64,000 bases of DNA. Source: Herbiconiux solani NBRC 106740 (GTDB lineage: Bacteria > Actinomycetota > Actinomycetes > Actinomycetales > Microbacteriaceae). Made by a program: the position numbers and the translations under genes. This document shows, in pieces, positions 9,208 to 30,717 of this stretch. Location of the stretch: the NCBI RefSeq assembly GCF_001571005.1, contig NZ_BCST01000006.1:1-64000 (forward strand). The letters run 5' to 3'. A model generated the notes under the pieces. That model saw nothing but the letters and a program-made list of their open reading frames with translations. It did no database searches and was not told the DNA's origin. Numbering within the stretch: position 1 is the stretch's first letter; each line of letters starts with the position of its first letter.

Positions 9208-9243
9208 CAGCGCCCGAGAGCGGGCCGCACGCAGGGGAAGCCG

Positions 9244-10014
9244 CTACGGCTTGCCGCGCATGATGGCCTGCTTGACCTCGGCGATCGCCTGGGTCACCTG
9301 GATGCCGCGGGGGCAGGCATCCGTGCAGTTGAAGGTCGTGCGGCAGCGCCACACGCCTTCCTTGTCGTTCAGGATGTCGAGCCGCGTCTGCGCCGCGTCG
9401 TCGCGCGAGTCGAAGATGAAGCGGTGCGCGTTGACGATCGCGGCGGGGCCGAAGTACTGCCCGTCTGTCCAGAACACGGGGCACGACGAGGTGCACGCGG
9501 CGCAGAGGATGCACTTGGTGGTGTCGTCGAAGCGGGCGCGGTCGGCGACCGACTGGATGCGCTCCTTGTCCTTCGGCGGCGCCGAGTTGGACTGCAGGAA
9601 GGGCTGCACCTCACGGAAGGACTCGAAGAACGGGTCCATGTCGACGATCAGGTCCTTCTCCAGCGGCAGGCCCTTGATGGCCTCGACGTAGATCGGCTTC
9701 GAGATGTCGAGGTCTTTGATCAGCGTCTTGCAGGCCAGCCGGTTGCGGCCGTTGATCCGCATCGCGTCCGAGCCGCAGATGCCGTGCGCACAGGAGCGGC
9801 GGAAGGTCAGCGACCCGTCCTGCTCCCACTTGATCTTGTGCAGCGCGTCGAGGATGCGGTCGGTCGCGAACATCTCGACGTCGAAGTCCTGCCAGCGCGG
9901 CTCGGTGTCGGTGTCGGGGTCGAAGCGACGGATGATCAGGGTGACGGTGAACGCCTCGATGGGCGCTTCGGGTGCCGGGCCGCCCGCGGGGGCCTCGTCG
10001 ATAACCATCGACAT
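9244..10014 (-). CDS. sdhB: Succinate dehydrogenase iron-sulfur subunit
   Basis: Carries electrons from the flavin of SdhA to the membrane subunits through three Fe-S clusters. The 256-aa protein (start MSMVIDEAP) has the 2Fe-2S ligand region SCAHGICGSDAM plus NRLAC, and the two C-terminal clusters at CILCAACTSSCPVFW and CRTTFNCTDACPRGI. The sdhA stop and sdhB start share one base (TGATG), so translation is coupled. An upstream in-frame extension overlaps sdhA and is rejected. Last gene of sdhCDAB. Confidence 0.97.
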   Translation of the reverse strand: MSMVIDEAPAGGPAPEAPIEAFTVTLIIRRFDPDTDTEPRWQDFDVEMFATDRILDALHKIKWEQDGSLTFRRSCAHGICGSDAMRINGRNRLACKTLIKDLDISKPIYVEAIKGLPLEKDLIVDMDPFFESFREVQPFLQSNSAPPKDKERIQSVADRARFDDTTKCILCAACTSSCPVFWTDGQYFGPAAIVNAHRFIFDSRDDAAQTRLDILNDKEGVWRCRTTFNCTDACPRGIQVTQAIAEVKQAIMRGKP

Positions 10015-15345: not shown

Positions 15346-16428
15346 ATGGCGACCTCGACGACCTCCCGGATCCTCCGCACCGGCGCCCTGCTCGGCGCCC
15401 TCGCCCTGCTCGTCACGGGATGCGCGGACGCGCCGGCCCCGTCCGGCAGCGACTCCGCCACCTCCGCCGCGGGCGACTACTGCGCCCGCATGGTCACGAA
15501 CTCCGGCGGCCTCGACGACCGCTCGTTCAACCAGTCGAGCTGGGAGGGCCTGGAGAAGGCCCAGTCGCAGTTCGGGATCGACGCGCAGGTGCTGGTCTCC
15601 ACGAACGAGACCGACCTGGCGCCCAACGTGTCTCAGGCGGTCGACAGCGGATGCGGCTTCGTGCTCACGGTCGGCTACGAGCTCGCCGACGCGACGCTCG
15701 CCGAGGCCGGCAGCAACCCGGACACGCACTTCGCGATCGTCGACGAGACCGTCGAGGCCCCGAACGTGAAGCCCATCCTCTTCGACACGGCCCAGGCCTC
15801 CTACCTCGCCGGCTACCTCGCCGCCGGGGTGACGAAGACCGGCAGGGTCGCGACCTTCGGCGGGGGCAACCAGCCCCCGGTGACCCTGTTCATGGACGGC
15901 TTCGTCGACGGCGTCGCGAAGTACAACGAGGTGCACGGCACGCAGGTGCAGGCGCTCGGCTGGGACAAGAACGCCCAGGACGGCGTGTTCACCGGCGACT
16001 TCGAGGACATCAACAAGGGCAAGACGGTCACGCAGAGCTTCATCGACCAGGGCGTGGACATCATCCTGCCGGTCGCCGGCCAGGTCGGCGAGGGCGCGGC
16101 CGCCGCGGCCCTGGAGAACTCGGGCGTCTCGATCATCTGGGTCGACAACGACGGCTACGACACCCTCCCGGCCGAGTACAAGCCGCTGCTCCTGACCAGC
16201 GTGATGAAGAACACCGGTGACGCGGTCGTCGAGATCGTCGGGGCGGACATCGGCGGGGACTTCTCGCCGGAGCCGTTCGTCGGCACCCTGGGCAACGGGG
16301 GAGTGGCGCTCGCGCCCTTCCACGACCAGGAGTCGAACGTCCCCACCGAGCTCAGCAGCGAGATCGCCGACCTGTCCTCGCAGATCACCGCGGGGTCGAT
16401 CACGGTGCAGTCGCCGAGCACGCCGTAG
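15346..16428 (+). CDS. BMP family nucleoside-binding lipoprotein (copy 1)
   Basis: A 360-aa substrate-binding lipoprotein of an ABC transporter. Signal peptide II: hydrophobic GALLGALALLVTGC with Cys26 as the lipid-anchored residue. The mature part has the BMP-family blocks GGLDDRSFNQSSWEG, PILFDTAQASYLAGYLAA, FMDGFVDGVAKYN and VDNDGYD. BMP proteins bind purine and pyrimidine nucleosides, consistent with the ABC genes downstream. Only 3 nt after manC and closed by its own terminator, so it is expressed separately from copy 2. It is a clear paralogue of the next gene with matching C-terminal VQSPSTP/VESPSTP. Confidence 0.92.
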   Translation: MATSTTSRILRTGALLGALALLVTGCADAPAPSGSDSATSAAGDYCARMVTNSGGLDDRSFNQSSWEGLEKAQSQFGIDAQVLVSTNETDLAPNVSQAVDSGCGFVLTVGYELADATLAEAGSNPDTHFAIVDETVEAPNVKPILFDTAQASYLAGYLAAGVTKTGRVATFGGGNQPPVTLFMDGFVDGVAKYNEVHGTQVQALGWDKNAQDGVFTGDFEDINKGKTVTQSFIDQGVDIILPVAGQVGEGAAAAALENSGVSIIWVDNDGYDTLPAEYKPLLLTSVMKNTGDAVVEIVGADIGGDFSPEPFVGTLGNGGVALAPFHDQESNVPTELSSEIADLSSQITAGSITVQSPSTP

Positions 16429-16449
16429 GCGCAGGAGATCCGGCTGAGG

Positions 16450-16480
16450 AGGCCTCCGCGTCACGGCGCGGAGGCCTTCG
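16450..16480 (+). terminator. Terminator after BMP copy 1
   Basis: Perfect 11-bp stem AGGCCTCCGCG/CGCGGAGGCCT (arms 16450-16460 and 16467-16477) with a 6-nt loop. A second copy of the same CGGAGGCCTCCGCG word lies at 16491-16504. The U-tract is poor, as is common in high-GC actinobacteria. Confidence 0.7.
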
Positions 16481-16654
16481 CGTTCCCCTGCGGAGGCCTC
16501 CGCGTTGCATTGCGGATGCCTTCGCGTTCCAGCGCGGGGGCCTGGACATTTCGCGCAGATTACAACGTGGTCGCGGCTTTGTAACGCTTCCGACCCGATG
16601 CCGTCCTCGCCCTGCCCCGAGGCGTAACTTTCGGTAACGTGTTCAGTCACACAG

Positions 16655-16690
16655 CCCCTGCGCTTCTGAGGCAGGGCAGCATCTTGGAGG
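16655..16690 (+). promoter_or_regulatory. Leader hairpin and ribosome binding site of BMP copy 2
   Basis: CCCTGC/GCAGGG (16656-16661 and 16671-16676) form a small stem just before GGAGG (16686-16690), which is 5 nt from the TTG start. Upstream, TAACGT (16635-16640) is a candidate -10, and TTACAA/TTGTAA (16560-16565, 16579-16584) an inverted repeat. Control is inferred only. Confidence 0.35.
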
Positions 16691-16695
16691 ACATC

Positions 16696-17778
16696 TTGAG
16701 CATCAACCTGCGCCGCGTCAGCGTGGCCGGCTTCGCCACCCTGGGCGTGGCCGCCCTTCTCGCCGGATGCGCGTCCGCTCCGTCGGACACCGCGTCCACC
16801 GGCAGCGCCGCCGCCGGGGGCGACTTCATCCCCTGCATGGTCTCCGACTCGGGCGGGTTCGACGACAAGTCGTTCAACCAGGCCGGCTACGAGGGCATCA
16901 ACGACGCCGCTGACGCCCTCGGCGTCAAGGCCGTCACCGTCGAGTCCTCGGCCGACACCGACTTCGCGCCGAACATCGACAACCTCATCTCGCAGGACTG
17001 CAACCTGATCATCTCGGTCGGCTTCCTCCTCGCCGACGCGACCAAGGCCGCGGCCGAGGCGAACCCCGAGACCAGCTTCTCGATCATCGACGACTCGTCG
17101 ATCGACCTGCCGAACGTCAAGCCGATCGTCTTCGACACCGCTCAGGCCGCGTTCCTGGCCGGCTACACCGCCGCCAGCTACAGCACCTCCGGCACCGTCG
17201 GAACCTTCGGTGGCATGCAGATCCCGTCGGTCACCATCTTCATGGACGGCTTCGTCGACGGCGTCAACTACTACAACCAGGAGAAGGGCAAGAGCGTCAA
17301 GGCCATCGGCTGGGACGTCGCAGCCCAGACCGGTTCGTTCACCGGTGGCTTCGCCGCCGGCGTCGAGGCCAAGACCGCCGCTCAGTCGCTCATCGACCAG
17401 GGCGCGGACGTCATCCTGCCCGTCGGTGGACCGATCTTCCTCTCCGCCGGTGAGGCCGTTCGCGACTCGGGCAAGAACATCGCCCTCGTCGGTGTCGACT
17501 CCGACAACTACGAGACCGCTCCGGACCTCAAGGACCTCTTCCTCACCTCGGTGCTGAAGGGCGTCAAGGCCGGTGTGGTCGACGTGACCGACACCGCCGC
17601 CGACGGCAAGTTCGACGCCACCCCGTTCGTGGGCACGCTCGAGAACGACGGCGTCGGAATCGCCCCGTTCCACGACTTCGAGAGCAAGGTCTCGAGCGAC
17701 CTGCAGGGTGAGCTGGACAAGATCAAGGCCGGCATCATCGACGGCAGCATCAAGGTCGAGTCGCCCTCGACCCCGTAA
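16696..17778 (+). CDS. BMP family nucleoside-binding lipoprotein (copy 2)
   Basis: A 360-aa lipoprotein, the likely main binding protein of the nucleoside ABC transporter. I start at TTG (LSINLRRVS), because GGAGG is 5 nt upstream and this gives a normal signal peptide ending in AALLAGC (Cys25); the upstream in-frame GTG overlaps the promoter. Mature-part blocks: GGFDDKSFNQAGYEG, PIVFDTAQAAFLAGYTAA, FMDGFVDGVNYYN, VDSDNYE. Codon use is cleaner and more biased than in copy 1, suggesting higher expression. A strong terminator follows, before the ATPase gene's own promoter. Confidence 0.92.
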   Translation: MSINLRRVSVAGFATLGVAALLAGCASAPSDTASTGSAAAGGDFIPCMVSDSGGFDDKSFNQAGYEGINDAADALGVKAVTVESSADTDFAPNIDNLISQDCNLIISVGFLLADATKAAAEANPETSFSIIDDSSIDLPNVKPIVFDTAQAAFLAGYTAASYSTSGTVGTFGGMQIPSVTIFMDGFVDGVNYYNQEKGKSVKAIGWDVAAQTGSFTGGFAAGVEAKTAAQSLIDQGADVILPVGGPIFLSAGEAVRDSGKNIALVGVDSDNYETAPDLKDLFLTSVLKGVKAGVVDVTDTAADGKFDATPFVGTLENDGVGIAPFHDFESKVSSDLQGELDKIKAGIIDGSIKVESPSTP

Positions 17779-17917: not shown

Positions 17918-19447
17918 ATGAAGCTCGAACTGCGGGGCATCACGAAGCGCTTCGGTGCCCTGACCGCGAACGACCACATCGACCTCACCGTCGAGCCGGG
18001 CGAGATCCACTGTCTCCTCGGCGAGAACGGTGCCGGCAAGTCCACCCTGATGAACGTGCTCTACGGCCTGTACCAGGCCGACGAGGGCGAGATCGTGCTC
18101 GACGACGTCGTCCAGCACTTCGCAGGCCCGGGCGACGCCATGAACGCCGGCATCGGGATGGTGCACCAGCACTTCATGCTGATCCCCGTCTTCACCGTCG
18201 CCGAGAACGTGATGCTCGGTCACGAGAAGACCGGGTTCGCCGGCCGCCTCGACCTCGCCGCCGCCCGCAAGCAGGTGCGCGAGATCAGCGAGCGGTTCGG
18301 CTTCGACGTCGATCCGGATGCGCTGGTCGACGACCTCCCCGTCGGTGTGCAGCAGCGGGTCGAGATCATCAAGGCCCTGTCGCGCGACGCGAAGGTGCTC
18401 GTCTTCGACGAGCCCACCGCGGTGCTGACGCCGCAGGAGACCGACGAGCTGATGGAGATCATGCGCCTCCTCAAGGAGCGCGGCACCTCGATCGTCTTCA
18501 TCACGCACAAGCTGCGCGAGGTGCGCGAGGTCGCCGACCGCATCACGGTCATCCGTCTCGGCAAGGTCGTCGGCGAGGCCTCGCCCACCGCGACCAACGC
18601 CGAGCTCGCGTCGCTCATGGTCGGGCGCTCGGTCGAGCTCACGGTTCAGAAAGACCCGGCCACGCTCGGTGCCTCGGCCCTCCAGGTCGAGAACCTCTCG
18701 GTGATCGACGCGCGCGGCCAGGTCGTCGTCAACGACGTGACCTTCGACGTGAAGGCGGGGGAGATCCTCGCCATCGCCGGCGTGCAGGGCAACGGCCAGA
18801 CCGAGCTCACCGAGGCCCTGATGGGGCTGCAGGACAGGGTCACCGGCACGGTCTCGCTCGACGGGCGACCGCTCGCCGGGCTCAGCACCCGCAAGGTGCT
18901 GGACGCGGGGGTCGGCTTCGTGCCCGAGGACCGCAAGGAGGACGGGCTGGTCGGCGAGTTCACCATCTCCGAGAACCTCATGCTCGACCGCTCGGAGGGG
19001 CGGCCCTTCGTCAAGGGCGGTTCGCTCCAGCTCTCGTACCTCTCGACCTTCGCCGAGGAGAAGTCGCGCGAGTTCGACGTGCGCTCGCAGGGCATCACGA
19101 CCGAGGTCGGCCGGCTCTCCGGCGGTAACCAGCAGAAGGTCGTCCTGGCCCGCGAGCTGTCGCGTGAGCTGCGCCTCTTCGTGGCGGCGCAGCCCACCCG
19201 CGGCATCGACGTCGGCTCGATCGAATTCGTGCACAAGCGCATCGTCGCGACCCGTGACGAGGGCATCCCGGTGATCGTGGTCTCGACCGAGCTCGACGAG
19301 GTCGTCGCGCTCGCCGACCGCATCGCGGTGATGTACCGCGGCGGGATCGTCGGCATCGTGCCCGGGAACACCTCGCGCGATGTGCTGGGACTCATGATGG
19401 CCGGAGAGATCCCGGCTGGAATCGAACTGGAAGGATCGGCCGCGTGA
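17918..19447 (+). CDS. Nucleoside ABC transporter, double ATPase subunit (NupA-like)
   Basis: A 509-aa protein with two nucleotide-binding domains in tandem, as in the BMP-dependent sugar/nucleoside importers (NupA, YufO). Domain 1 has a good Walker A, GENGAGKST (residues 35-43), signature LPVGVQQRVEI and VLVFDEPTAVL. Domain 2 (from about residue 250) has a degenerate Walker A, GVQGNGQTE, but an intact LSGGNQQKVVLAREL, the asymmetry usual in this family; its Walker B reads RLFVAAQPTRG. It powers import through the two permeases encoded next, with which it overlaps by 4 nt (GTGA). Confidence 0.94.
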   Translation: MKLELRGITKRFGALTANDHIDLTVEPGEIHCLLGENGAGKSTLMNVLYGLYQADEGEIVLDDVVQHFAGPGDAMNAGIGMVHQHFMLIPVFTVAENVMLGHEKTGFAGRLDLAAARKQVREISERFGFDVDPDALVDDLPVGVQQRVEIIKALSRDAKVLVFDEPTAVLTPQETDELMEIMRLLKERGTSIVFITHKLREVREVADRITVIRLGKVVGEASPTATNAELASLMVGRSVELTVQKDPATLGASALQVENLSVIDARGQVVVNDVTFDVKAGEILAIAGVQGNGQTELTEALMGLQDRVTGTVSLDGRPLAGLSTRKVLDAGVGFVPEDRKEDGLVGEFTISENLMLDRSEGRPFVKGGSLQLSYLSTFAEEKSREFDVRSQGITTEVGRLSGGNQQKVVLARELSRELRLFVAAQPTRGIDVGSIEFVHKRIVATRDEGIPVIVVSTELDEVVALADRIAVMYRGGIVGIVPGNTSRDVLGLMMAGEIPAGIELEGSAA

Positions 19448-20805
19448 GCGACACCGAGAACACGCCCGACCCTCAGGCTCCCGCCGGATCGGCCATCCCG
19501 GCGCCGGCGACGGTCCCGGCCGGCGCGCCCACGGGTGCCACCGTCTCCGGTCAGCCCGCCGCCGGACAGCCGGCGGAGCCGCCGTCGCGCTGGCGCCTGG
19601 CGTTCAACGAGATCATCGGCGGATCCGTGATGATCTCGATCCTCGCGGTCGTGCTCGCGATGGTGGCCGGCGGCATCCTGATCGCCGTGACCGACGAGAA
19701 CGTGCAGAAGGCGGCCGGCTACTTCTTCGCCCGCCCCGGTGACACCTTCGCCGAGATTTGGAAGGCCGTTTCGGGCGCCTACGTCGCCCTCTTCCAGGGC
19801 TCGGTGTTCAACCCGAACCGCAAGGACTTCGTCGACGTGATCAAGCCGATCACCGAGACGCTCACCTTCGCCACTCCGCTGATCGCGGCCGGTCTCGGCG
19901 TCGGCCTGGCGTTCCGCGTAGGCATGTTCAACATCGGTGGCCGCGGCCAGATGCTGATCGCCGCGGCCTGCGCCGGCTGGGTGGGCTTCACCCTGCACCT
20001 GCCCTGGGGCATCCACCTCGTCGTCGCCATCATCGCCGGCGTCGTCGGCGGTGGGATCTGGGGCGGTATCGCGGGTCTGTTGAAGGCCCGCACCGGCGCC
20101 CACGAGGTGATCGTCACGATCATGCTCAACTACGTCGCCTTCTACCTCGTCTCCTACCTCCTCCGCACCCCGGTGCTGCAGGCGCCGGGATCGAACAACC
20201 CGAAGTCGCCGCCCATCGACCCGACCGCGGTGCTGCCCGACATCCTGGGCCCGCAGTTCAACCTGCATCTCGGGTTCATCCTGGTGATCGCGGCCACGGT
20301 GTTCGTCTGGTGGCTGCTCAACCGTTCGGCGCTCGGCTTCAAGTTCCGGGCCGTGGGCCTCAACCCGAACGCCGCCCGGGTCGCCGGTATCGACGTGAAG
20401 AACATGTACGTCTACGCGATGCTCATCTCGGGCGGGCTCGTCGGTCTCGCCGGCGTCTTCCAGGTGCTCGGGACCGTGACCACCGGCTTCAGCTCGGGCA
20501 TCGACGCAGGCATCGGCTTCGACGCGATCACCGTCGCACTGCTCGGCCGCTCGAAGCCGTGGGGCATCTTCATCGCCGGCATCCTCTTCGGTGCGTTCAA
20601 GGCCGGCGGATTCGCGATGCAGGCCTCGCAGGGCATCCCGATCGACATCGTGCTCGTCGTGCAGTCGCTGATCGTGCTCTTCATCGCCGCCCCGCCGCTC
20701 GTGCGCGCGGTGTTCCGCCTGCCGGATCCGGCCAACCCCAAGAAGCCGAAGGCGCCCAAGTCGCCTCGACCGGCTGTGACCCGTGAGGCGGTGGCCGCGA
20801 AATGA
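19444..20805 (+). CDS. Nucleoside ABC transporter permease 1
   Basis: A 453-aa inner membrane permease of the BPD_transp_2 type. A Pro/Ala-rich cytosolic N-terminus of about 50 residues precedes eight or more helices; the family blocks AGLGVGLAFRVGMFNIGGRGQM and GFKFRAVGLNPNAARVAGI are present. Forms a heterodimer with permease 2. GTG start overlaps the ATPase gene; the stop overlaps the next ATG (ATGA). The C-terminal tail is Lys/Pro rich. Confidence 0.93.
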   Translation: MSDTENTPDPQAPAGSAIPAPATVPAGAPTGATVSGQPAAGQPAEPPSRWRLAFNEIIGGSVMISILAVVLAMVAGGILIAVTDENVQKAAGYFFARPGDTFAEIWKAVSGAYVALFQGSVFNPNRKDFVDVIKPITETLTFATPLIAAGLGVGLAFRVGMFNIGGRGQMLIAAACAGWVGFTLHLPWGIHLVVAIIAGVVGGGIWGGIAGLLKARTGAHEVIVTIMLNYVAFYLVSYLLRTPVLQAPGSNNPKSPPIDPTAVLPDILGPQFNLHLGFILVIAATVFVWWLLNRSALGFKFRAVGLNPNAARVAGIDVKNMYVYAMLISGGLVGLAGVFQVLGTVTTGFSSGIDAGIGFDAITVALLGRSKPWGIFIAGILFGAFKAGGFAMQASQGIPIDIVLVVQSLIVLFIAAPPLVRAVFRLPDPANPKKPKAPKSPRPAVTREAVAAK

Positions 20806-22130
20806 GCGAGAACGTGTCGACCAACAACCTGGCCTCCTCGGCCGGCCTGCCGCCGACCGAGCACAACCACCCCGACTCGGACTCCGGGCTCGCGCGGGTT
20901 CTCGTCAAGAGCTGGAAGGCGCCGATCGCGTTCGGCATCTTCGCGCTCGGTGCGATCATCCTCTTCGTCGTGTTCGGGCGTGACGGCGACTCGACCTTCC
21001 GGCTGTCGACCGACTCGGACCTGATCCAGCTGCCCGAGGTCGTGCTGCCGACGCGCGGAACCGGGCTCGTCATCTCGTTCGTGCTGGTGCTCCTCGCGCT
21101 GTACTCGGTCTGGCTCGTCTCCCGGGCCCGCAAGGTGCGGATCTGGCTGATGGCCGTGTTCGCGGTGCTCTTCCTGATCGCGTTCCTGGCGTGGGCCTCG
21201 GCTGGCCAGACGCTGCCGGTGCCCGGCCTCCTGATCGGAACCGTCTCGCTCAGCGTGCCGCTGATCTTCGGTGCCCTCGGTGGCGTGATCTCCGAGCGCG
21301 TCGGCGTCGTGAACGTCGCGATCGAGGCCCAGCTGCTGGGAGGCGCGTTCGTCTCGGCGGTCGTCGCCTCCGTCACCGGCAACCCGTTCGTCGGGCTCGT
21401 CGGCGCGATCGTCGCCGGTGTGCTCGTCTCCTTCGTGCTCGCCGCGTTCTCGATCAAGTACCTGGTCGATCAGGTGATCGTCGGTGTCGTGCTGAACGTG
21501 CTCGTCACCGGGCTCACCTCGTTCCTCTACTCGCAGGTGCTCACGAACAACGCCGCGGTGCTCAACTCGCCGCCGCGGTTCGACCGGTGGGACATCCCGC
21601 TGCTGTCCGAGATCCCGGTCATCGGGCCGACCCTGTTCCGCCAGACGGTCATCGTGTACCTGATGTACATCGCGGTCGCCGTGGTGTTCTACGGACTGTT
21701 CAAGACCCGCTGGGGGCTCCGTGTGCGGGCCGTGGGCGAGCATCCTCAGGCCGCCGACACCGTGGGCATCAAGGTCAACCGCACCCGGTTCTGGACCGTG
21801 TCGCTCGCCGGCGCGATCGCCGGCCTCGGCGGCGCGTACTTCACGCTCGGCTCGGTGGGTGCGTTCAACAAGGAGATGACCGCGGGCATGGGTTATATCG
21901 CCCTGGCCGCGGTGATCTTCGGCCGGTGGGATCCCATCCGTGCCACGCTCGCCGCCCTGCTGTTCGGCTTCGCGTCGAACCTGCAGAACGTGCTGGGCGT
22001 GATCGGGTCGCCCGTGCCCTCGGAGTTCATGCTGATGCTGCCGTACGTCGTGACGATCTTCGCGGTGGCGGGGCTGGTCGGGCGGGTCCGCGGGCCCGCC
22101 GCATCCGGCAAGCCGTACATCGGGTCGTAG
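20802..22130 (+). CDS. Nucleoside ABC transporter permease 2
   Basis: A 442-aa BPD_transp_2 permease with a cytosolic N-terminus of about 40 residues and about ten helices. Typical blocks are GALGGVISERVGVVNVAIEAQ and WGLRVRAVGEHPQAADTVG. Pairs with permease 1 for nucleoside import. Ten nt separate it from cdd, so uptake and breakdown genes share one transcript. Confidence 0.93.
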   Translation: MSENVSTNNLASSAGLPPTEHNHPDSDSGLARVLVKSWKAPIAFGIFALGAIILFVVFGRDGDSTFRLSTDSDLIQLPEVVLPTRGTGLVISFVLVLLALYSVWLVSRARKVRIWLMAVFAVLFLIAFLAWASAGQTLPVPGLLIGTVSLSVPLIFGALGGVISERVGVVNVAIEAQLLGGAFVSAVVASVTGNPFVGLVGAIVAGVLVSFVLAAFSIKYLVDQVIVGVVLNVLVTGLTSFLYSQVLTNNAAVLNSPPRFDRWDIPLLSEIPVIGPTLFRQTVIVYLMYIAVAVVFYGLFKTRWGLRVRAVGEHPQAADTVGIKVNRTRFWTVSLAGAIAGLGGAYFTLGSVGAFNKEMTAGMGYIALAAVIFGRWDPIRATLAALLFGFASNLQNVLGVIGSPVPSEFMLMLPYVVTIFAVAGLVGRVRGPAASGKPYIGS

Positions 22131-22139
22131 GAGGCAGAG

Positions 22140-22556
22140 ATGGCTGAGATCGATTGGGATTCGCTGCGCGCCGTCGCGCTCGAGGCGATGGAGAAGGCCT
22201 ACGTGCCGTACTCCAAGTTCCCCGTGGGAGTGGCGGCGATCGTCGACGACGGGCGGACCATCTCGGGCTGCAACGTCGAGAACGCCTCGTACGGCCTGAC
22301 GCTCTGCGCCGAGTGCACGCTGGTGTCGACGCTGATGATGACCGGCGGCGGCAAGCTCGTCGCGTTCACCTGCGTCGACGGCCACGGCGGCGCGCTCATG
22401 CCGTGCGGTCGCTGCCGTCAGCTGCTGTTCGAGCACTCGGCCGAGGGGATGCTGCTCGAGACCGTCTCCGGCATCAAGACGATCGACGAGGTGATCCCGG
22501 ATGCGTTCGGGCCGCGCACGCTCGTCGAGTACCGCGAGGAGTCGCTCGCCGAGTAG
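22140..22556 (+). CDS. cdd: Cytidine deaminase
   Basis: Deaminates cytidine and deoxycytidine to uridine forms. The 138-aa protein is the short tetrameric type: CNVENASYG (44-52), the zinc/proton-shuttle motif CAE (56-58) and PCGRC (88-92) give three Cys ligands and the catalytic Glu57. AGGAGG lies 5 nt before the ATG. It feeds uridine forms to the thymidine/uridine phosphorylase pathway downstream. Confidence 0.96.
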   Translation: MAEIDWDSLRAVALEAMEKAYVPYSKFPVGVAAIVDDGRTISGCNVENASYGLTLCAECTLVSTLMMTGGGKLVAFTCVDGHGGALMPCGRCRQLLFEHSAEGMLLETVSGIKTIDEVIPDAFGPRTLVEYREESLAE

Positions 22557-22593
22557 GCGGTGCGGCTCAGCAACAGTTAGGAACCACCTGCTC

Positions 22594-23883
22594 ATGGCCG
22601 AGAAGTTCGATGTCGTCGACCTCATCCGCACGAAGCGCGACAAGGGTTCGCTCACGACCGCCGAGATCAACTGGCTGATCGACGCGTACACCCGCGGCTA
22701 CGTCGGCGACGAGCAGATGGCCGCCTTCGCCATGGCCGTGACCTTGAACGGCATGACCCGCGACGAGGTGCGCGACCTGACGCTCGCGATGATCGCCTCG
22801 GGGGAGCGGATGGACTTCTCGTCGCTCGGCAAGCCGACCGTCGACAAGCACTCGACCGGCGGAGTGGGCGACAAGATCACGCTGCCGCTGATGCCCCTCG
22901 TGGCCTCGTTCGGCGTCGCGGTTCCGCAGCTCTCGGGCCGCGGGCTCGGGCACACCGGGGGCACGCTCGACAAGCTCGAGTCGATCCCGGGCTGGCGGGC
23001 GTCCCTCACCAATGACGAGATCTTCGCGCAGCTTTCATCGGTGGGCGGGGTCATCTGCGCCGCCGGGTCTGGGCTCGCGCCGGCCGACAAGAAGCTCTAC
23101 GCCCTACGGGACATCACGGGCACGGTCGAGGCCATCCCGCTGATCGCGTCGTCGATCATGTCGAAGAAGATCGCCGAGGGCACCGACTCGCTCGTGCTCG
23201 ACGTGAAGTTCGGCTCGGGCGCGTTCATGCAGGACATCGCGCTCTCGCGGGAGCTCGCGCAGACGATGGTCGACCTCGGCAACGACGCCGGCGTGCGCAC
23301 CACGGCGCTGCTGACGAACATGCACGTGCCGCTGGGGCTCGCGATCGGCAATGCCAACGAGGTGCGCGAGTCGGTCGAGGTGCTCGCCGGCGGCGGGCCC
23401 GCGGATGTCGTGGAGCTGACGCTGGCTCTGGCCTCGGAGATGCTGCGCCTGGCCGGGCAGCCGGATGCCGACGTGGCCGCCGCGCTGAAGGATGGCCGGG
23501 CCATGGACACCTGGCGCCGGGTGATCGAGGCCCAGGGCGGCGACCCGGACGGTGCGCTGCCGACCCCGCGCGAGACGATGACCGTGACGGCGCCGTCGTC
23601 CGGCGTGCTGCTGCGGCAGGATGCGCTGTCGTTCGGCATCGCCGCGTGGCGGCTCGGCGCGGGTCGTGCCCGGGCGGCCGACCCGGTGGTGCACGCTGCG
23701 GGGATCGACCTGCTGGCGAAGCCGGGCGACACGGTCGTCGAGGGGCAGCCGCTGTTCACGCTGTCCGGCGACGACCCGGCGCGGTTCGAGCGGGCGCTCG
23801 AGTCGCTGGAGGGTGCGTGGAGCATCGGGCCGGCGAGCGATTACTTCGGCGAGGCGCCGTTGGTGGCGGAGCGGATCTCGTAG
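22594..23883 (+). CDS. deoA: Thymidine phosphorylase
   Basis: Phosphorolyses thymidine and deoxyuridine to base plus deoxyribose 1-phosphate. 429 aa; family blocks LIRTKRDKGSLTTAEI, the phosphate-binding KHSTGGVGDKITL (about 87-99), SGRGLGHTGGTLDKLES and VLDVKFGSGAFM are all present, as is the C-terminal pyrimidine nucleoside phosphorylase domain (HAAGIDLLAKPGD). Start at MAEKFDVVDL; AGGA is rather far upstream (about 13 nt). Last gene of the transporter operon; a 31-bp tandem repeat begins at its stop codon. Confidence 0.95.
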   Translation: MAEKFDVVDLIRTKRDKGSLTTAEINWLIDAYTRGYVGDEQMAAFAMAVTLNGMTRDEVRDLTLAMIASGERMDFSSLGKPTVDKHSTGGVGDKITLPLMPLVASFGVAVPQLSGRGLGHTGGTLDKLESIPGWRASLTNDEIFAQLSSVGGVICAAGSGLAPADKKLYALRDITGTVEAIPLIASSIMSKKIAEGTDSLVLDVKFGSGAFMQDIALSRELAQTMVDLGNDAGVRTTALLTNMHVPLGLAIGNANEVRESVEVLAGGGPADVVELTLALASEMLRLAGQPDADVAAALKDGRAMDTWRRVIEAQGGDPDGALPTPRETMTVTAPSSGVLLRQDALSFGIAAWRLGAGRARAADPVVHAAGIDLLAKPGDTVVEGQPLFTLSGDDPARFERALESLEGAWSIGPASDYFGEAPLVAERIS

Positions 23884-24636: not shown

Positions 24637-24712
24637 CCCACCCCGCCGAGAAGTCACTTTTACGTCCACCGCGCGGGTTTTGGACGTGAAAGTGACTTCT
24701 CGGTGGGGTGGG
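24637..24712. repeat. Long intergenic palindrome (32-bp arms) between convergent genes
   Basis: Arms 24637-24668 and 24681-24712 are complementary over 32 positions; the only two mismatches become G-U pairs in RNA. The 12-nt loop is CCGCGCGGGTTT. It lies between the ends of the DinB-like and nucleoside hydrolase genes, so it can act as a bidirectional terminator, but the arm is far longer than needed and contains a CGAGAAGTCACTTTTACGTC core unlike the surrounding GC-rich DNA. It may be a dispersed REP-type element. Confidence 0.8.
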
Positions 24713-24718
24713 GCGGGG

Positions 24719-25663
24719 CTAGGCGGGGTCGCCGATGCGCTCGAGGGCGTCGACGATGAGCGCCCAGAAGGCCTCGTGGTCGAGGTCGACCGCGACCTGG
24801 GTGTGGCAGTCGGCCGGAGCGGGAGCGCGGAAGTCGGCCACCGTCATCCCGAGTGTGAGGGTTCCGGTCAGCTCGATGTCGATCGGCACGCGACGGGCCG
24901 AGACGACGTCGGGGGCGATCACGCGGGCGACGGCGCAGGGGTCGTGCACGGGCGGGTGCAGGAAGCCCTGTGCCTCGAGGTAGGTCGACGCGAAGAACTG
25001 CAGCAGCTCGACCACGAACTGCGCGGGGCCGGTGCCGATCTGCTGGATGCGAGCAACCACCTCAGGTGTCGCCAGCGCCTGATGCGTCAGGTCGAGCCCG
25101 ACCATGGTGAGGGGCCAGGACTCGTTGAAGACGATGTGCGCCGCCTCCGGGTCGATGATGATGTTGAACTCGCTCGTCGCGCTCCAGTTGCCGCCGGCGT
25201 AGCCGCCGCCCATCAGCACGACCTCCTTCACGCGAGGCACGATCCGCGGCTCCTTGCGCGCCGCCATCGCGATGTTCGTGAGGCCGCCGGTCGGCACGAG
25301 CGTGATCGTGCCCGGCTCGTGGCTCATGATCGTCTCGATGATCAGGTCGACGGCGTGCCGCTCGTCGAGCTCGAGCGTCGGCTCGGGGAGCACCGGCCCG
25401 TCGAGCCCCGACTCGCCGTGGATGTCGGGCGCGACCTCGACCGTGCGCACGAGCGGCCGCGCGCAGCCGGCGGCGAAGGGGATGCCCTTGATCCCCGCGA
25501 CCCGCGCCACCGAGAGGGCGTTGCGGGTGACCTTCTTGAGGGTCTGGTTGCCCACGACGGTCGTCACGGCGAGCAGCTCGATCGAGGGATTGCCGTGCGC
25601 GAGCAGGATGGCGATCGCGTCGTCGTGACCCGGATCGCAGTCGAGGATGATCTTCTGAGGCAT
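24719..25663 (-). CDS. Inosine-uridine preferring nucleoside hydrolase
   Basis: Hydrolyses the N-glycosidic bond of ribonucleosides. The 314-aa protein has the calcium-binding LDCDPGHDDA with Asp8, Asp10, Asp14 and Asp15, the late HDPCAV with the catalytic-type His, and family blocks GNQTLKKVTRNAL, VPTGGLTNIA, LMGGGYAGGNW and SEFNIIIDPEAA. The ATG lies 7 nt after TAGGCT. Its promoter is back-to-back with that of the adenosylhomocysteinase-like gene across a palindromic operator, so the two are likely co-regulated. Which nucleosides it prefers cannot be told. Confidence 0.93.
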   Translation of the reverse strand: MPQKIILDCDPGHDDAIAILLAHGNPSIELLAVTTVVGNQTLKKVTRNALSVARVAGIKGIPFAAGCARPLVRTVEVAPDIHGESGLDGPVLPEPTLELDERHAVDLIIETIMSHEPGTITLVPTGGLTNIAMAARKEPRIVPRVKEVVLMGGGYAGGNWSATSEFNIIIDPEAAHIVFNESWPLTMVGLDLTHQALATPEVVARIQQIGTGPAQFVVELLQFFASTYLEAQGFLHPPVHDPCAVARVIAPDVVSARRVPIDIELTGTLTLGMTVADFRAPAPADCHTQVAVDLDHEAFWALIVDALERIGDPA

Positions 25664-25670
25664 GCCACTG

Positions 25671-25726
25671 AGCCTATACGACTTTTCACAGATGAAATCG
25701 AGTTTCATCTGTGCGATACTCGGATC
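25671..25726. promoter_or_regulatory. Divergent leaderless promoters flanking a palindromic operator
   Basis: On the minus strand TAGGCT (25671-25676) is 7 nt from the hydrolase ATG. On the plus strand GATACT (25715-25720) is 6 nt from the ATG at 25727. Between them lies the 27-bp palindrome listed separately, which covers both -35 regions. Confidence 0.65.
25687..25713. promoter_or_regulatory. Palindromic operator, CACAGATGAAA-N5-TTTCATCTGTG
   Basis: Perfect 11-bp arms with the 5-nt centre TCGAG. The site is AT-rich in a GC-rich genome, symmetric, and placed where a repressor would block both divergent genes. The IclR gene 1.2 kb away, in the same transcript as the right-hand gene, is the obvious candidate regulator (inference). 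Confidence 0.75.
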
Positions 25727-26938
25727 ATGACCGATCTCGCCATCTCCGCCGACCTCGCCGCCGCGGGGGCCGCCCGCGTCGAGTGGATCCGCTCCCGCAT
25801 GCCCCTCCTCGCCGCAGCCCGCGAGGAGCTCGCCCGCACCCGTCCCTTCGCCGGGCACCGGATCGGCATGTCCCTGCATATCGAGCCGAAGACGGCGGTG
25901 CTGCTCGAGACGCTCGCCGCGGGCGGCGCCGAGATCGTCGGCACCGGTAACCACGGGTCGACCCAAGACGACGTGGTCGAGTTCCTCCGCGCATCCTCCG
26001 CCGAGGCCGGCCAGCCGATGACGCTGTTCGGCCGCCGAGACGACACGCTCGACGAGCACCACGCCAACATCGCCCGCGTGCTCGACGCCGAGCCCGACAT
26101 GCTGCTCGACAACGGGGGAGACCTCGCGGCCGGGGTCGTGGCGCGCGGCGCCACCGCAAGCATCCTCGGCGGCACCGAGGAGACCACCTCGGGCGGAGAC
26201 CGCCTGCGCGGCGGCCTCGCGGGGGCCGTTCCGTTCCCGATGATCGTGATCAACGACAGCCTGCTCAAGGCGATCGGCGAGAACAAGCACGCGGTCGGCC
26301 AGTCGGTCGTCGAGAGCTTCATGCGCATCACCAACCTGATGGTGCCGGGGCGCCGCTTCGTGGTCTTCGGCTACGGCTGGTGCGGCCGAGGTGTCGCGCA
26401 CTACCTCCGCGCGCTCGGCGGCAAGGTCGCGGTCGTCGAGATCGACGAGCTCAAGGCCTTCGAGGCCGCGCTCGACGGGTTCCGGGTGTCGACGGCGCTC
26501 GACCTCGCGCCCTGGGGTGATGTCTTCATCACCGCCACCGGGCACGCCGACGTGCTGACGGTCGACGCGATCGAGCTCATGCACGACGGAGCGGTCCTCG
26601 CCAACTGCGGCCACTTCCCCTGGGAGATCGACGTTGCGGGCCTCCGTGCCGCCGCGACCGGCAGCCGCGAGATCGTCGACGCGGTCGAGCGCATCGACCT
26701 GCCCAACGGCCGGCACGTGGTGCTGCTCGCGGGCGGGCGCATGTTCAACCTCGCCGGGCGCGAGCCCAAAGGCAACTCGCTCGAGTCGATGGATCTCGGT
26801 TTCCTTCTCCAGACCCTCTCGCTCGAGCGCGTGGCGACGGATGCGGAGTCGCTGGTCCCCGGCGCCCAGCCGGTGCCCGACGACATCGACCGCACGATCG
26901 CCCGGCGGATGCTCGCGGCGATGAACGCGGCCGAGTAG
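25727..26938 (+). CDS. Adenosylhomocysteinase-like NAD-dependent hydrolase (divergent paralogue)
   Basis: A 403-aa protein of the S-adenosylhomocysteine hydrolase fold. Seen: His51 in SLHIEP, STQD (78-81), Asp132 in LLDNGGDL, EETT (151-154), NDSLLK with Lys181, the NAD motif GYGWCG (215-220), and NCGHF with His296. These match the catalytic set of true SahH (H55, D131, E156, K186, H301 in the human enzyme, from memory), but Asp190 is replaced by Glu185, the adenine-contacting Thr57/Glu59 correspond to Glu53/Lys55, and the GHP loop before MD is changed to EPKGNSLES. It also lacks the C-terminal Lys-x-x-x-Tyr arm. So the reaction type is probably kept while the base recognised differs, perhaps hypoxanthine (S-inosylhomocysteine) or another nucleoside thioether (inference). 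Divergent to a nucleoside hydrolase, 2 nt ahead of an IclR gene. Confidence 0.85.
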   Translation: MTDLAISADLAAAGAARVEWIRSRMPLLAAAREELARTRPFAGHRIGMSLHIEPKTAVLLETLAAGGAEIVGTGNHGSTQDDVVEFLRASSAEAGQPMTLFGRRDDTLDEHHANIARVLDAEPDMLLDNGGDLAAGVVARGATASILGGTEETTSGGDRLRGGLAGAVPFPMIVINDSLLKAIGENKHAVGQSVVESFMRITNLMVPGRRFVVFGYGWCGRGVAHYLRALGGKVAVVEIDELKAFEAALDGFRVSTALDLAPWGDVFITATGHADVLTVDAIELMHDGAVLANCGHFPWEIDVAGLRAAATGSREIVDAVERIDLPNGRHVVLLAGGRMFNLAGREPKGNSLESMDLGFLLQTLSLERVATDAESLVPGAQPVPDDIDRTIARRMLAAMNAAE

Positions 26939-26940
26939 CC

Positions 26941-27648
26941 ATGCCGCCGGAGTACGCGGTCCCGGCGCTGGAGAAGGCCCTCGACATCCTCGAGACGCTC
27001 GCCGAGACCCCCGAAGCGATGAGCCAGCTCGAGATCGCGCTGGCGGTCGACCGGTCGCCGAGCCAGATCTTCCGCGTGCTGACCACGCTCGAGCGCCGCG
27101 GCTACCTCTACCGCGACCCGCAGAGCGGCGCGTACTCCCTGTCGCTCCGCCTGTTCGACCTCTCCCACCGGCAGGAGCCGCTGCGGTCGCTCACGGAGGC
27201 GGCACTCGGGCCGATGCGCGAGCTCGCGGCGGCGACCGGTCAGTCGTGCAACCTCAGCGTGCGCGAGGGCGGCGGAGTGCGCGTCGTGGCGCAGGTCGAG
27301 AGCCCGGCCGACTTCGGCTTCCGGGTGCGGGTGGGGGCGCTGTTCCCGCTCGAGACGACGGCGACGGGTGCCGTGCTCGCGGCCTTCGCCGGCGACGGCG
27401 GCGCGGATGCGGGAGCGGTTGCGGATGCGCGTGCGCGCATCCGTGCCGACGGGCATCTCGAGCGGTCAGACTCATTGCAGCCGTCGATCACCGACCTGGT
27501 CTTCCCGGTGCTCAACCGGCAACGGGTCGCGCTCGCGGCCCTCACGGTGCCCTACGTGGCGACGAGCTTCAGCACGGTTCCCGCCGATCGCGTCCGCGAC
27601 CTCACCGGCCGCGCGGCCGCGGCGATCGGCGCCGCCCTGGGCCTCTAG
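26941..27648 (+). CDS. IclR family transcriptional regulator
   Basis: A 235-aa repressor/activator with an N-terminal winged helix-turn-helix (residues about 5-65, including MSQLEIALAVDRSPSQIFRVL and the wing RRGYLYRDPQSGAYSLS) and a C-terminal IclR effector domain (about 80-235). It starts 2 nt after the adenosylhomocysteinase-like stop, so it is co-transcribed, and probably binds the palindrome upstream of that gene. The effector is likely a nucleoside or thioether derived from the neighbouring enzymes (inference). Confidence 0.9.
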   Translation: MPPEYAVPALEKALDILETLAETPEAMSQLEIALAVDRSPSQIFRVLTTLERRGYLYRDPQSGAYSLSLRLFDLSHRQEPLRSLTEAALGPMRELAAATGQSCNLSVREGGGVRVVAQVESPADFGFRVRVGALFPLETTATGAVLAAFAGDGGADAGAVADARARIRADGHLERSDSLQPSITDLVFPVLNRQRVALAALTVPYVATSFSTVPADRVRDLTGRAAAAIGAALGL

Positions 27649-27771
27649 GGCGAGCTGCTCTGTGTCGCCGAAGTGGGAACGAGCCGCCGGCTCAGCGGAT
27701 TCACGTGTGGTCGCTTCCGGGAGCTTGCGAGTGGCTGGCGGCGCGAACCCACGGCGTCCGGGGGGTCGACG

Positions 27772-27930
27772 GTCAGCGGAACTGGCCGGCGGCCAGCGTG
27801 CCTGCGGAGCCAGCGGGTCCCCGGGTCAGCGGAACTGGCTGGCGGCCAGCGCGCCTGCGGAGTCAGCGGGTCAGTGGCACGGGCCGGCGGTCGGCGCAGC
27901 TGCGGAGTCGACGGGTCAGCGGCACTGGCC
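27772..27930 (-). repeat. Four degenerate tandem copies of a gene 3' end (45-53 bp)
   Basis: On the minus strand a unit containing GGCCAGTGCCGCTGACCC occurs at the stop codon of the metallopeptidase-like gene and recurs three more times downstream, at spacings of 45, 45 and 53 bp, each ending in a decayed copy of the stop region. The rest of the 27649-27915 spacer contains nothing else recognisable. Confidence 0.75.
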
Positions 27931-29466
27931 GGCTACCTCGATCTGCTCGTCGGTGGGGCGGCCGTAGGCCTCGATGCCCGAGCCCGGGACGTCGAAGCCC
28001 TGGCTGATCGCCCAGGCTGTGGCCCACATCTCGTGGTCCTCCGAGAACACCGGGCCCGAGAAAAGGGGCCAGCAGTTCTCGCGGTAGACCTGGGTGTGGC
28101 CGACCTCGTGCGTCACGACGGCCTGAGGATTGGTGTCGCTGCCCCACTCCTCCTCGACAGGGAAGTTGAGGCTGATGATGGCCCAGCCGCCGTCGGAATC
28201 CCAGGTCTGCGCGGTACCGGAGAGCCAGCCCTCGCCGAGTCCGCTCACCTCGGGCGCCCAGACGAAGTCGAGCGTGATGCCGTTGCTGATCGACCGCGCG
28301 TAGGCCTCGATCTCGTGGCGGGTTGCGAGCGACGGGTCGTCCTGCTCGGCGGCCAGCTGCACCTGCGAGTCGCGCACCGCCTGCTCGGCGGCCGCGAATG
28401 CTGCGACGAAGGCTCCGTCGCGGGAGGCACTCGCCGTGCTGTCCTCCGCGATCTCGATCTGACGGGTGAGGTCGACCTGGGACGACTTCGTCGACAGGGG
28501 ATTGGCCGCGATCGTCTGCTCGGCCTGGTCGGCGCGGGCGGCGAAGTAAGCGCCCTCGGTGTCCTCGGCCGTCTTCTCGGAGGTCGCGGCGGACTCGGCC
28601 GAGTCCTCCAGGAGCGCGGTGACCGCGCGGGTCTGGCGGGCGAGGTCGTCGGCCTCGGCGGCGGCGGCCTGCACGTCCCACGGCAATCGGTAGCCGCCGT
28701 CGTCGACGGATACGGACGCCGTGCCGATGGCCGCCGCCACCTCCACAGAGGCGGTCGCGGGTGGTGGGACGGGCGCGGTCGTCTGCCCGGCAGCTTCGAG
28801 CGCGATGACCGCCGCGCGGAAGGGCTCGGCCTCGGGCGAGGCGTCGGCCGCGAACTGCGGCGCCGCCACGACCGTGCGCACGCGGGCCAGCAGGGTCGAG
28901 ACGCTGCGCATCCGGGCCTCGAAGGCGCGCTCGGCCGAGTCGTGCTCGTCGACAGCTGAGACCAGCCGATCGTCGGCGCCCCGGAGCTGGGTCTCGGCGA
29001 GCACGCTCCACCCGAAGAAGGCGCCGGCCAGCACGACGATCGCCCCCAGCGAGATCCCGATGACGGCGAGCGGACGTCGCGCCCGCGATCGCGATCGGTG
29101 CGGCTCGCTCGGCGGCAGTCCCTCCGATACGCGCACCCCGAACGCGGGCCCCTCCGGCACCCGCACTCCGAACGCCGGCTCCTGCAAGACGCGCACTCCG
29201 TACGCGGGCCCCGATGCCACGGGCTCTGCCATAGCCGGCCGCGTTGCCATGGGCTCTGCCGACGCCGGCCCCGATGCCACGGGCTCTGCCATAGCCGGCC
29301 GCGCTGCCACAGGCGCCACCGATGGCGACCCGGCCGACACAGGCCCCTCCGGCGACATCCCGGTCGACCCAGACGCCTCCGACGACGGAACCGCTGCCGC
29401 AGGAGCCTCCGGCCCCTGCCCCGACTCGCTTCCGGGCAGGCCCGAACCGGGCGCCTCCTGGCTCAT
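27916..29466 (-). CDS. Membrane-anchored protein with extracellular HExxH (zinc peptidase-like) domain
   Basis: 516 aa, not assignable to a named family. Residues 1-125 are a cytosolic Pro/Ala/Gly-rich region with internal repeats (PAMAEPVASGP twice, AFGVRVPEG-like three times). One membrane helix follows a basic patch (RSRSRARR, then about 131-153). Residues 155-390 are Ala/Glu-rich and helical, probably coiled coil. The C-terminal domain carries THEVGH (His453, Glu454, His457) and EDHEMWA with Glu479 as a plausible third zinc ligand, the gluzincin pattern; Cys465 and Cys515 could form a disulfide. The protein thus looks like a surface metallopeptidase facing the cell wall. Start at the ATG; no strong Shine-Dalgarno. 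Confidence 0.75.
   Translation of the reverse strand: MSQEAPGSGLPGSESGQGPEAPAAAVPSSEASGSTGMSPEGPVSAGSPSVAPVAARPAMAEPVASGPASAEPMATRPAMAEPVASGPAYGVRVLQEPAFGVRVPEGPAFGVRVSEGLPPSEPHRSRSRARRPLAVIGISLGAIVVLAGAFFGWSVLAETQLRGADDRLVSAVDEHDSAERAFEARMRSVSTLLARVRTVVAAPQFAADASPEAEPFRAAVIALEAAGQTTAPVPPPATASVEVAAAIGTASVSVDDGGYRLPWDVQAAAAEADDLARQTRAVTALLEDSAESAATSEKTAEDTEGAYFAARADQAEQTIAANPLSTKSSQVDLTRQIEIAEDSTASASRDGAFVAAFAAAEQAVRDSQVQLAAEQDDPSLATRHEIEAYARSISNGITLDFVWAPEVSGLGEGWLSGTAQTWDSDGGWAIISLNFPVEEEWGSDTNPQAVVTHEVGHTQVYRENCWPLFSGPVFSEDHEMWATAWAISQGFDVPGSGIEAYGRPTDEQIEVAGQCR
29135..29335 (-). repeat. Coding repeats in the 5' part of the HExxH protein gene
   Basis: Three copies of a 30-bp unit around CGCACTCCGAACGC (29135-29215) and a 60-bp unit around GGGCTCTGCCATAGCCGGCC repeated about one and a half times (29215-29320). 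They keep the reading frame and give the repeated peptide segments, so they are probably variable in length between strains. Confidence 0.75.
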
Positions 29467-29595: not shown

Positions 29596-30717
29596 ATGAC
29601 CGCAGCGCCAGAGGAATACCTCGTCCCCGGAACCGCAATCAGCTTCAACTCGCTTCCGAAAGTGTCGCTCCACGATCATCTCGACGGGGGTCTCCGGGCC
29701 TCCACGATCATCGAGCTCGCCGACGAGATCGGGCTCGAACTGCCCTCCACCGACGAGTTCGATCTCGCCGACTGGTTCGAGGAGAACGCCGACTCCGGTT
29801 CGCTGACCGACTACATCGCGACCTTCGACCTGACCATCGGAGTCATGCAGACCCGCGCCGGCCTCATCCGCGTCGCACGGGAGTTCGTCACCGACCTCGC
29901 CGCCGACGGAGTGGTCTACGGCGAGGTGCGCTGGGCTCCCGAGCAGCACCTCACCCAGGGACTCTCGCTCGACGAGGTCGTCGAGGCCGTGCAGGAGGGC
30001 ATCGAGCTCGGCACCGACGACGCGCGCGGCGAGGGCCGAAGCATCCGGGTCGGCCAGCTGCTCTCGGCCATGCGCCATCAGCGTCGGGGCCTCGAGATCG
30101 CCGAGCTCGCGGTGCGTCACCGCGACGCCGGAGTCGTCGGCTTCGACATCGCCGGCCCCGAGCTCGGCTACCCGGCCAAGGACCAGCTCGCGGCCTTCGA
30201 CTACCTCGCCCAGAACTTCATGCCGGCCACGGTGCACGCCGGCGAGGCCGACGGGCTCGACAGCATCCGCGGTGCGCTCTTCGACGGCCGTGCGCTCCGC
30301 CTCGGCCACGGTGTGCGGATCGCCGAGGACATCGAGATCGAGCGCCAGGACGACGACAACACCTACGTCTCGCTGGGGCTGCTCTCGCAGTGGGTCAAGG
30401 ATCGCGAGATCGCCCTCGAGCTCTCGCCGTCGTCGAACCTGCAGACCGGCGCCATCGCCGAGTGGGGCGACGAGCTCGCCGACCACCCGTTCGACCTGCT
30501 CTACCAGCTCGGCTTCCAGGTCACGGTGAACACCGACAACCGCCTGATGAGCAACACCTCGATCAGCCGCGAGCTCGCGCTGCTGACGGATGCGTTCGGC
30601 TACGACCTCGCCGACATCGAGGTCTTCCAGCTCAACGCCGCCGCCGCCGCGTTCCTCCCGGTCGAGGACCGCGAGGATCTGGCCGACGCGATCTCGGAGG
30701 GCTTCGACGCCCTCTGA
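29596..30717 (+). CDS. add: Adenosine deaminase
   Basis: Deaminates adenosine and deoxyadenosine to inosine forms. The 373-aa protein has the zinc-binding HDHLDGGLR (His26 and His28), the catalytic VHAGEADG, RLGHGVRI and the final NTDNRLMSNT with the Asp ligand pair. Its product inosine is the substrate of the PNP and, possibly, of the nucleoside hydrolase in the window. Stand-alone transcript with its own leaderless promoter. Confidence 0.96.
   Translation: MTAAPEEYLVPGTAISFNSLPKVSLHDHLDGGLRASTIIELADEIGLELPSTDEFDLADWFEENADSGSLTDYIATFDLTIGVMQTRAGLIRVAREFVTDLAADGVVYGEVRWAPEQHLTQGLSLDEVVEAVQEGIELGTDDARGEGRSIRVGQLLSAMRHQRRGLEIAELAVRHRDAGVVGFDIAGPELGYPAKDQLAAFDYLAQNFMPATVHAGEADGLDSIRGALFDGRALRLGHGVRIAEDIEIERQDDDNTYVSLGLLSQWVKDREIALELSPSSNLQTGAIAEWGDELADHPFDLLYQLGFQVTVNTDNRLMSNTSISRELALLTDAFGYDLADIEVFQLNAAAAAFLPVEDREDLADAISEGFDAL

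Follow-up and report, generated by a model that had tools for sequence, protein, structure and literature searches.

A clade of SAHH-like proteins with two active-site aspartates replaced and a probable role in nucleoside salvage

Introduction

Both the mechanism and the key residues of S-adenosylhomocysteine (SAH) hydrolase (SAHH) are described as exceptionally conserved (PMC13406329). In the mouse enzyme Asp131, which also contacts the 5'-OH, is the proton donor to C4', and the 2'-OH is bound by Glu156 and Asp190 (PMC4647836); in a 2026 review the C4' proton is abstracted by lupin Asp139 (PMC13406329), by our own reading the same residue as human Asp131. Among 18 enzymes tested by Koeppl et al. 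(2024), those with the motif HxExK preferred S-inosylhomocysteine (SIH) and those with HxTxE or HxTxQ preferred SAH; most of the enzymes with a short C-terminus in that study are thermophilic, and archaeal SAHHs are likewise short at this end (PMC10978960). A further relative, the angustmycin dehydratase AgmF, has a changed substrate and tightly bound NAD, and its D129A exchange, at the equivalent of Asp131, abolished activity (PMC8599513). Here we analyzed a 64,000-nucleotide stretch of Herbiconiux solani NBRC 106740 (Microbacteriaceae; contig NZ_BCST01000006.1, positions 1 to 64,000), called the window hereafter, which encodes a SAHH-like protein; SahHL is used as a working name for this protein and the members of its clade.

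The clade is marked by Asn and Glu at the positions of Asp131 and Asp190, and in many genomes its genes lie among genes of nucleoside metabolism. From these sequence comparisons we consider SahHL to be probably an NAD-dependent nucleoside-salvage enzyme which acts beside a deaminase and apart from the methyl cycle.

Results

Fold and active site of SahHL

SahHL carries the Pfam domains AdoHcyase and AdoHcyase_NAD, and its predicted structure (predicted local distance difference test score 96.3) superimposes on PDB entry 7r39 with a root-mean-square deviation of 1.4 Å across 389 residues, which places it in the SAHH superfamily by domains and fold. It scores 374 bits against the NCBIfam adenosylhomocysteinase model NF004005 (cut-off 275), and 348.8 against TIGR00936, under the cut-off of 497.6. 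With human numbering anchored on PDB 1li4, the residues His55, Glu156, Thr157, Lys186, Asn191 and His301 (His51, Glu152, Thr153, Lys181, Asn186 and His296 in SahHL) are kept, as are Phe302 and the NAD motif. The catalytic Asp131 is replaced by Asn129 and Asp190 by Glu185. A first-pass annotation of the window had counted Asp132, together with His51, Glu152, Lys181, His296 and the NAD motif, among the retained catalytic residues; the others stand, but Asp132 aligns with human Asp134, and since it is Asn129 that aligns with Asp131, SahHL does not keep all catalytic residues. In the base pocket, Thr57 and Glu59 are exchanged for Glu53 and Lys55. Further changes are Phe189 to Gly184, Asp303 to Pro298 and His353 to Asn350, the last in a loop with two residues more than in the Pyrococcus furiosus enzyme, and the protein stops where the C-terminal arm would start. 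The same alignment bears out the annotation's description of the Glu53/Lys55 pair, of Glu185, of an altered GHP loop and of the absent arm. Neither the pair nor the short C-terminus is new in itself, as the pair is found in the Thermotoga maritima and P. furiosus enzymes and the short end in archaeal SAHHs (PMC10978960).

The motif of SahHL, HIEPK (H51-E53-K55), differs from the HxTxE/Q adenine fingerprint of canonical SAH hydrolases, and SahHL also lacks their Asp131/Asp190 pair and their long arm, although the short C-terminus alone does not exclude SAH activity because it is shared with archaeal SAHHs. Given that SIH-preferring enzymes are recognized in the literature by HxExK, a hypoxanthine-type base pocket is a sound inference from the sequence. 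The SIH-preferring hydrolases (SIHHs) of Thermotoga and Euryarchaeota (PDB 3x2e, 7r37, 7r3a) resemble SahHL in fold, HxExK motif, absence of the 40-residue insert, short C-terminus and an identity of about 40%. Unlike SahHL, the T. maritima and P. furiosus enzymes, the two from PMC10978960 covered by our alignment, retain Asp131, Asp190, His353 and the GHP motif. Canonical bacterial SahH shares the superfamily, the NAD site and His55, Glu156, Lys186 and Asn191 with SahHL, but has HxTxQ, Asp131 and Asp190, is about 80 residues longer, ends in an HYRY C-terminal arm in nearly all rows and lies in a different genomic context. AgmF, although a SAHH relative like SahHL, retains the required Asp129 and Asp188 (Asn and Glu in SahHL), belongs to a biosynthetic cluster and acts on an adenine nucleoside (PMC8599513). 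The loss of Asp131 disfavours ordinary thioether cleavage by SahHL, and nothing speaks more strongly for a different reaction than the fixation of this loss together with the change of Asp190 to Glu.

The Asn/Glu clade

Genome contigs were scanned with a profile built from a 10-member alignment, and the best 80 of at least 593 candidates were kept; 31 of 79 typed loci among these (L124 left out) carry both Asn and Glu. In Microbacteriaceae, the family of the window, all 53 distinct rows at 42% identity or more carry the two residues, with HxExK in 51 and HxDxK in two. In a tree of 74 rows, calculated after removal of five trait columns and rooted at the midpoint only, a branch with a bootstrap of 100 and a Shimodaira-Hasegawa-like approximate likelihood ratio (SH-aLRT) of 99 separates the 40 Asn/Glu rows from all others. 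The SIHH-type rows fall on the opposite side of this branch, so SahHL does not group with the SIHHs, and a quick tree required one change each to Asn and to Glu. The Asn129 and Glu185 types were found in 40/40 clade rows versus 0/31 SAH- and SIH-type rows, and Asn350 in 39/40 versus 0/31 (three VxExK rows left out of this count). All eight SIHH-type rows have Asp at both positions, Asp131 having been one of the criteria for their selection. The position of Phe189 is occupied by Gly, Ala, Val, Ile or Leu in the clade, and His55, Glu156, Lys186, Asn191 and the NAD motif are retained in its alignments.

The record titles of typed members include Cellulomonas, Streptomyces, Rhizobium and Vibrio as well as metagenome-assembled genomes of Amycolatopsis, Devosia, Armatimonadetes and Acidimicrobiia, and the sampled clade spans Actinomycetota, Rhizobiales, Vibrio and others. 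By these comparisons, SahHL belongs to a branch of its own within the SAHH superfamily, marked by a fixed Asn/Glu replacement. No description of the clade was found in the open-licence literature searched.

In a second group of SAHH-like paralogues (L089, L091, L092 and L259, the last at 9206-10441), Val replaces the catalytic His55 (VLEPKT) and the GHF gate is altered. In L089 and on a Roseateles plasmid the VLEPKT paralogue and an HxExK SAHH form a tandem pair, and the plasmid copy has ABC, amidohydrolase and nucleoside hydrolase genes close by. The plasmid amidohydrolase was considered as a SAH deaminase and rejected, as it scores far under the cut-offs of all deaminase models tried.

Genomic context

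The neighbourhood of SahHL in the window is a nucleoside unit comprising an importer, deaminases, a phosphorylase and a hydrolase (Table 1). Across 41 family loci (the window and 40 further loci, two of the 41 sharing a genome), nucleoside or ribose genes lie within 5 kb of SahHL in 27, namely adenosine deaminase in 25, nucleoside hydrolase in 24, phosphorylase in 22, cytidine deaminase (Cdd) in 21 and a nucleoside-type ABC transporter in 19; an IclR gene is present at this distance in 29 of the 41. No such nucleoside genes were found within 5 kb of canonical SAHH at 18 loci, all from genomes which also carry SahHL (for 10 of the 18, the genome is represented in the set of 41 as well). The role outside the methyl cycle suggested in the first-pass annotation is supported by this difference.

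Because the family loci share ancestry, independent contexts weigh more. On a plasmid of Vibrio nigripulchritudo, the order is nucleoside hydrolase, SahHL (of the Asn/Glu type), adenosine deaminase and ribokinase, with gaps of a few bases or overlaps, and DeoR and NupC are encoded nearby. SahHL is followed by NupC in V. splendidus, and one Microbacteriaceae genome (L069) has the order Cdd-SahHL-ribokinase-hydrolase. In two alphaproteobacterial records, a LacI gene faces an ABC-Cdd-SahHL run (L122) or Cdd lies upstream of SahHL (L124), and at L143 RbsD/FucU lies upstream. A nucleoside-salvage role of SahHL, in company with a deaminase and with nucleoside hydrolase, is well supported.

The loss of the catalytic Asp would also fit a protein that binds nucleosides without turning them over and serves in regulation, like the AHCYL proteins of animals. 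We regard this as highly improbable, given that His55, Glu156, Lys186, Asn191 and the NAD motif are retained in the clade and that SahHL is located among enzymes.

A palindrome between UriH and SahHL

UriH-type nucleoside hydrolases are known from work on Corynebacterium. The divergent neighbour of SahHL passes the equivalog cut-off of the corresponding model (Table 1), and differs from the known type by a palindrome common to it and the SAHH-like gene. The gap separating the two genes is 63 bp and contains this perfect palindrome, the like of which appeared in none of 100 shuffles; it is a probable operator for both genes, with the IclR-family protein as its putative ligand. The arrangement claimed in the first-pass annotation, a hydrolase divergent from SahHL across one, here probable, operator and an IclR gene following SahHL, is present in the window.

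In 34 relatives with an identity of at least 62% (L033-L067 less L054), the divergent pair is kept in 20 and an IclR match in 28. Similar sites with the core ATGAA-N7-TTCAT were found upstream of SahHL in 13 of the 20 relatives with a directly divergent hydrolase and in none of the 14 without. No further copies that would outline a regulon were detected in the window with up to three mismatches allowed, or elsewhere in the relatives' loci when at least 11 of the 13 half-site positions had to match.

Table 1. Features of the SahHL neighbourhood in the window.
Feature	Coordinates	Strand	Remarks
Second Bmp/PnrA-like substrate-binding protein	15346..16428	+	Pfam PF02608
Substrate-binding protein, Bmp/PnrA-like	16639..17778	+	Pfam PF02608; putative nucleoside ligand
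ABC ATPase	17918..19447	+	domain match
ABC permease (BPD_transp_2)	19444..20805	+	domain match
ABC permease (BPD_transp_2)	20802..22130	+	domain match
Cytidine deaminase	22140..22556	+	Pfam PF00383, PF08211
Thymidine/pyrimidine-nucleoside phosphorylase	22594..23883	+	NCBIfam NF004490 613.3 bits, cut-off 269 (scored as 22582-23883)
Uridine-preferring nucleoside hydrolase UriH, divergent neighbour of SahHL	24719..25663	-	Pfam IU_nuc_hydro; NCBIfam NF052221 519.1 bits, cut-off 450
Perfect 27-bp palindrome, probable operator common to UriH and SahHL	25687..25713		11-nt arms, 5-nt spacer
SahHL, SAHH-like protein, 403 aa	25727..26938	+	HxExK, Asn129/Glu185 for human Asp131/Asp190, C-terminal arm absent
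IclR-family regulator	26941..27648	+	begins 2 bp past the SahHL stop codon; Pfam HTH_IclR, IclR_C
Adenosine deaminase	29596..30717	+	NCBIfam NF006847 528.6 bits, cut-off 412

Other features were seen around the unit. Two Bmp/PnrA-like binding proteins stand in tandem (15346-17778) ahead of one ABC ATPase and two permeases, and their substrates may differ. Between the 3' ends of a DinB-like gene and UriH lies a long hairpin (24637-24712; 32-nt arms, 94% complementary, 12-nt loop), a possible two-way terminator. A repeat in three to four imperfect copies with a spacing of 45-53 bp (27771-27933) extends into the 3' end of the gene that follows, which encodes on the minus strand (27916-29466) a 516-residue protein without a Pfam match; with an HEVGH motif and an alanine/proline-rich, repeat-like N-terminal part, it may be metalloprotease-like.

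Co-occurrence with genes of the methyl cycle

A second, canonical SahH had been expected in the same genome by the first-pass annotation. None was found in this genome (99.92% complete): PF05221 matches SahHL only, and SahHL alone is above the cut-off of PF00670. Taken literally, this is the outcome which the annotation had named as refuting its idea. It does not do so, because the genome has an MTA/SAH nucleosidase and LuxS, and because a canonical enzyme accompanies SahHL in most genomes of the family. Canonical SAHH, taken as a PF05221 match with an E-value of about 1e-60 or better (G082, G197, G104 and G256 being doubtful), is present in 221 of 299 family genomes, and LuxS in 5 of these 221 versus 47 of the other 78. 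SahHL was found in 62 family genomes (at least 63% identity), 50 of which also have canonical SAHH, and its occurrence shows no dependence on that of canonical SAHH (p = 0.20). Among genomes without canonical SAHH, LuxS is present in 4 of 12 with SahHL versus 43 of 66 without it (p = 0.055), a contrast that drops to p = 0.16 once the four doubtful genomes are removed and in which genomes are not independent. Because 17 of the 46 family genomes without any SAHH-family match (26 of these 46 identified by elimination) also lack LuxS, the contrast is suggestive and proves neither side.

These data bear on whether SahHL is an ordinary archaeal-type SAHH of the methyl cycle that backs up or substitutes for canonical SahH. 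The NF004005 score and the fact that SahHL is the only SAHH-family gene in some genomes would agree with such a function. The wrong base fingerprint, Asn for Asp131, the TIGR00936 score, the maintenance of SahHL alongside canonical SAHH or, in its own genome, LuxS, and the nucleoside-gene neighbours all speak against it. On residues, context and co-occurrence we reject it as the leading explanation and consider it very unlikely.

Discussion

SahHL is a remodelled cousin of SAHH which lacks a key catalytic residue and probably does a different job on imported nucleosides. In the scheme we infer for its substrate, 3'-oxidation and order of steps, the importer would take up nucleosides and a deaminase (adenosine deaminase or, in some operons, one of the cytidine deaminase type) would yield the keto-base form, which SahHL would bind via Glu53 and Lys55. 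Its bound NAD+ would oxidize the ribose 3'-OH, the enzyme would remove or correct a change on the sugar and re-reduce the 3'-ketone, and the resulting ordinary nucleoside, of the inosine type, would pass to the nucleoside hydrolase and ribokinase.

Two versions of this scheme share the weight about evenly. SahHL could be a hydrolase of SIH or another 5'-thio-inosine, a version we hold only tentatively, in which imported SAH is deaminated and SahHL eliminates homocysteine by the usual 3'-keto/C4'-carbanion chemistry, with another group substituting for Asp131. The preference of HxExK enzymes for SIH (PMC10978960), the presence of adenosine deaminase and nucleoside hydrolase in the same operon in two phyla, the existence of SahHL-carrying genomes that lack a known SAH route and the LuxS contrast before removal of the doubtful genomes all point this way, and SIH derived from imported SAH is the single likeliest substrate, with less than even confidence. 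Against it stand the Asn at the Asp131 position in all 40 clade rows, the inactivity of AgmF after the matching exchange (PMC8599513), the weakening of the LuxS contrast, the non-independence of the genomes in it and the lack of a dedicated SAH deaminase among the operon genes scanned, the rest of the genome not having been searched for one. Of the SIH route proposed in the first-pass annotation, the hypoxanthine-type pocket implied by HxExK is retained; cleavage of a 5'-thioether is not established, the residue for the C4' proton being Asn in every typed member of the clade.

Nucleoside hydrolases are not known to accept sugar-modified nucleosides, and this is a premise of the second version, which we entertain with equal caution. 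Here 3'-oxidation is retained, the C4' base is lost and the reaction takes place at another position of the sugar, for instance as 2'-epimerization or cleavage of nucleosides with a modified sugar (arabino-, 2'-O-methyl- or others). Conceivably, then, a widespread family of the SAHH fold performs neither C4'-proton abstraction nor thioether cleavage and repairs or dismantles sugar-modified nucleosides after deamination. By transient 3'-oxidation with bound NAD+ it might supply the nucleoside hydrolase, a hitherto unknown reaction of nucleoside catabolism. The joint fixation of Asn for Asp131 and of Glu for Asp190, a contact of the 2'-OH (PMC4647836), agrees with such a change in chemistry, as do the replacement of Phe189, the loss of His353 in 39 of 40 rows and the ordinary hydrolase, deaminase and ribokinase as partners. 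It lacks a precedent in the literature searched, and AgmF, the sole SAHH relative with another reaction found there, retains the Asp (PMC8599513).

Several observations weigh against our preferred role in nucleoside salvage. The neighbouring hydrolase is uridine-preferring and the operon mostly pyrimidine-directed, so that the hypoxanthine direction is not obvious. Nucleoside neighbours are missing at 14 of the 41 family loci. Beyond 8 window-like operons, only 3 of 23 genome-contig loci (31 in total) have informative neighbours, as does one of six plasmid loci of the Asn/Glu type, and next to SahHL of Rhizobium nothing informative was seen in the gene calls and the nucleoside panel gave no matches. 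The plasmid records of Photobacterium and rhizobia are unannotated in this region. Four genomes (G145, G242, G064 and G264) carry SahHL and none of canonical SAHH, LuxS and a match to the MTA/SAH nucleosidase model, a pattern that would fit SahHL disposing of SAH itself. This pattern speaks for some activity directed at SAH or SIH, and it is the chief finding against a changed chemistry.

In a superfamily known for its conservation, a well-supported clade spanning several phyla has two active-site acids replaced, and many of its members lie in nucleoside-catabolic operons. Automatic annotation calls these proteins adenosylhomocysteinase, and metabolic models relying on the label would assign a methyl-cycle step which the genomes may not have. 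If SahHL handles SIH, mesophilic bacteria would have the deamination route too, in the form of a catabolic module; if it does not, SahHL would represent a new NAD-dependent step in nucleoside breakdown.

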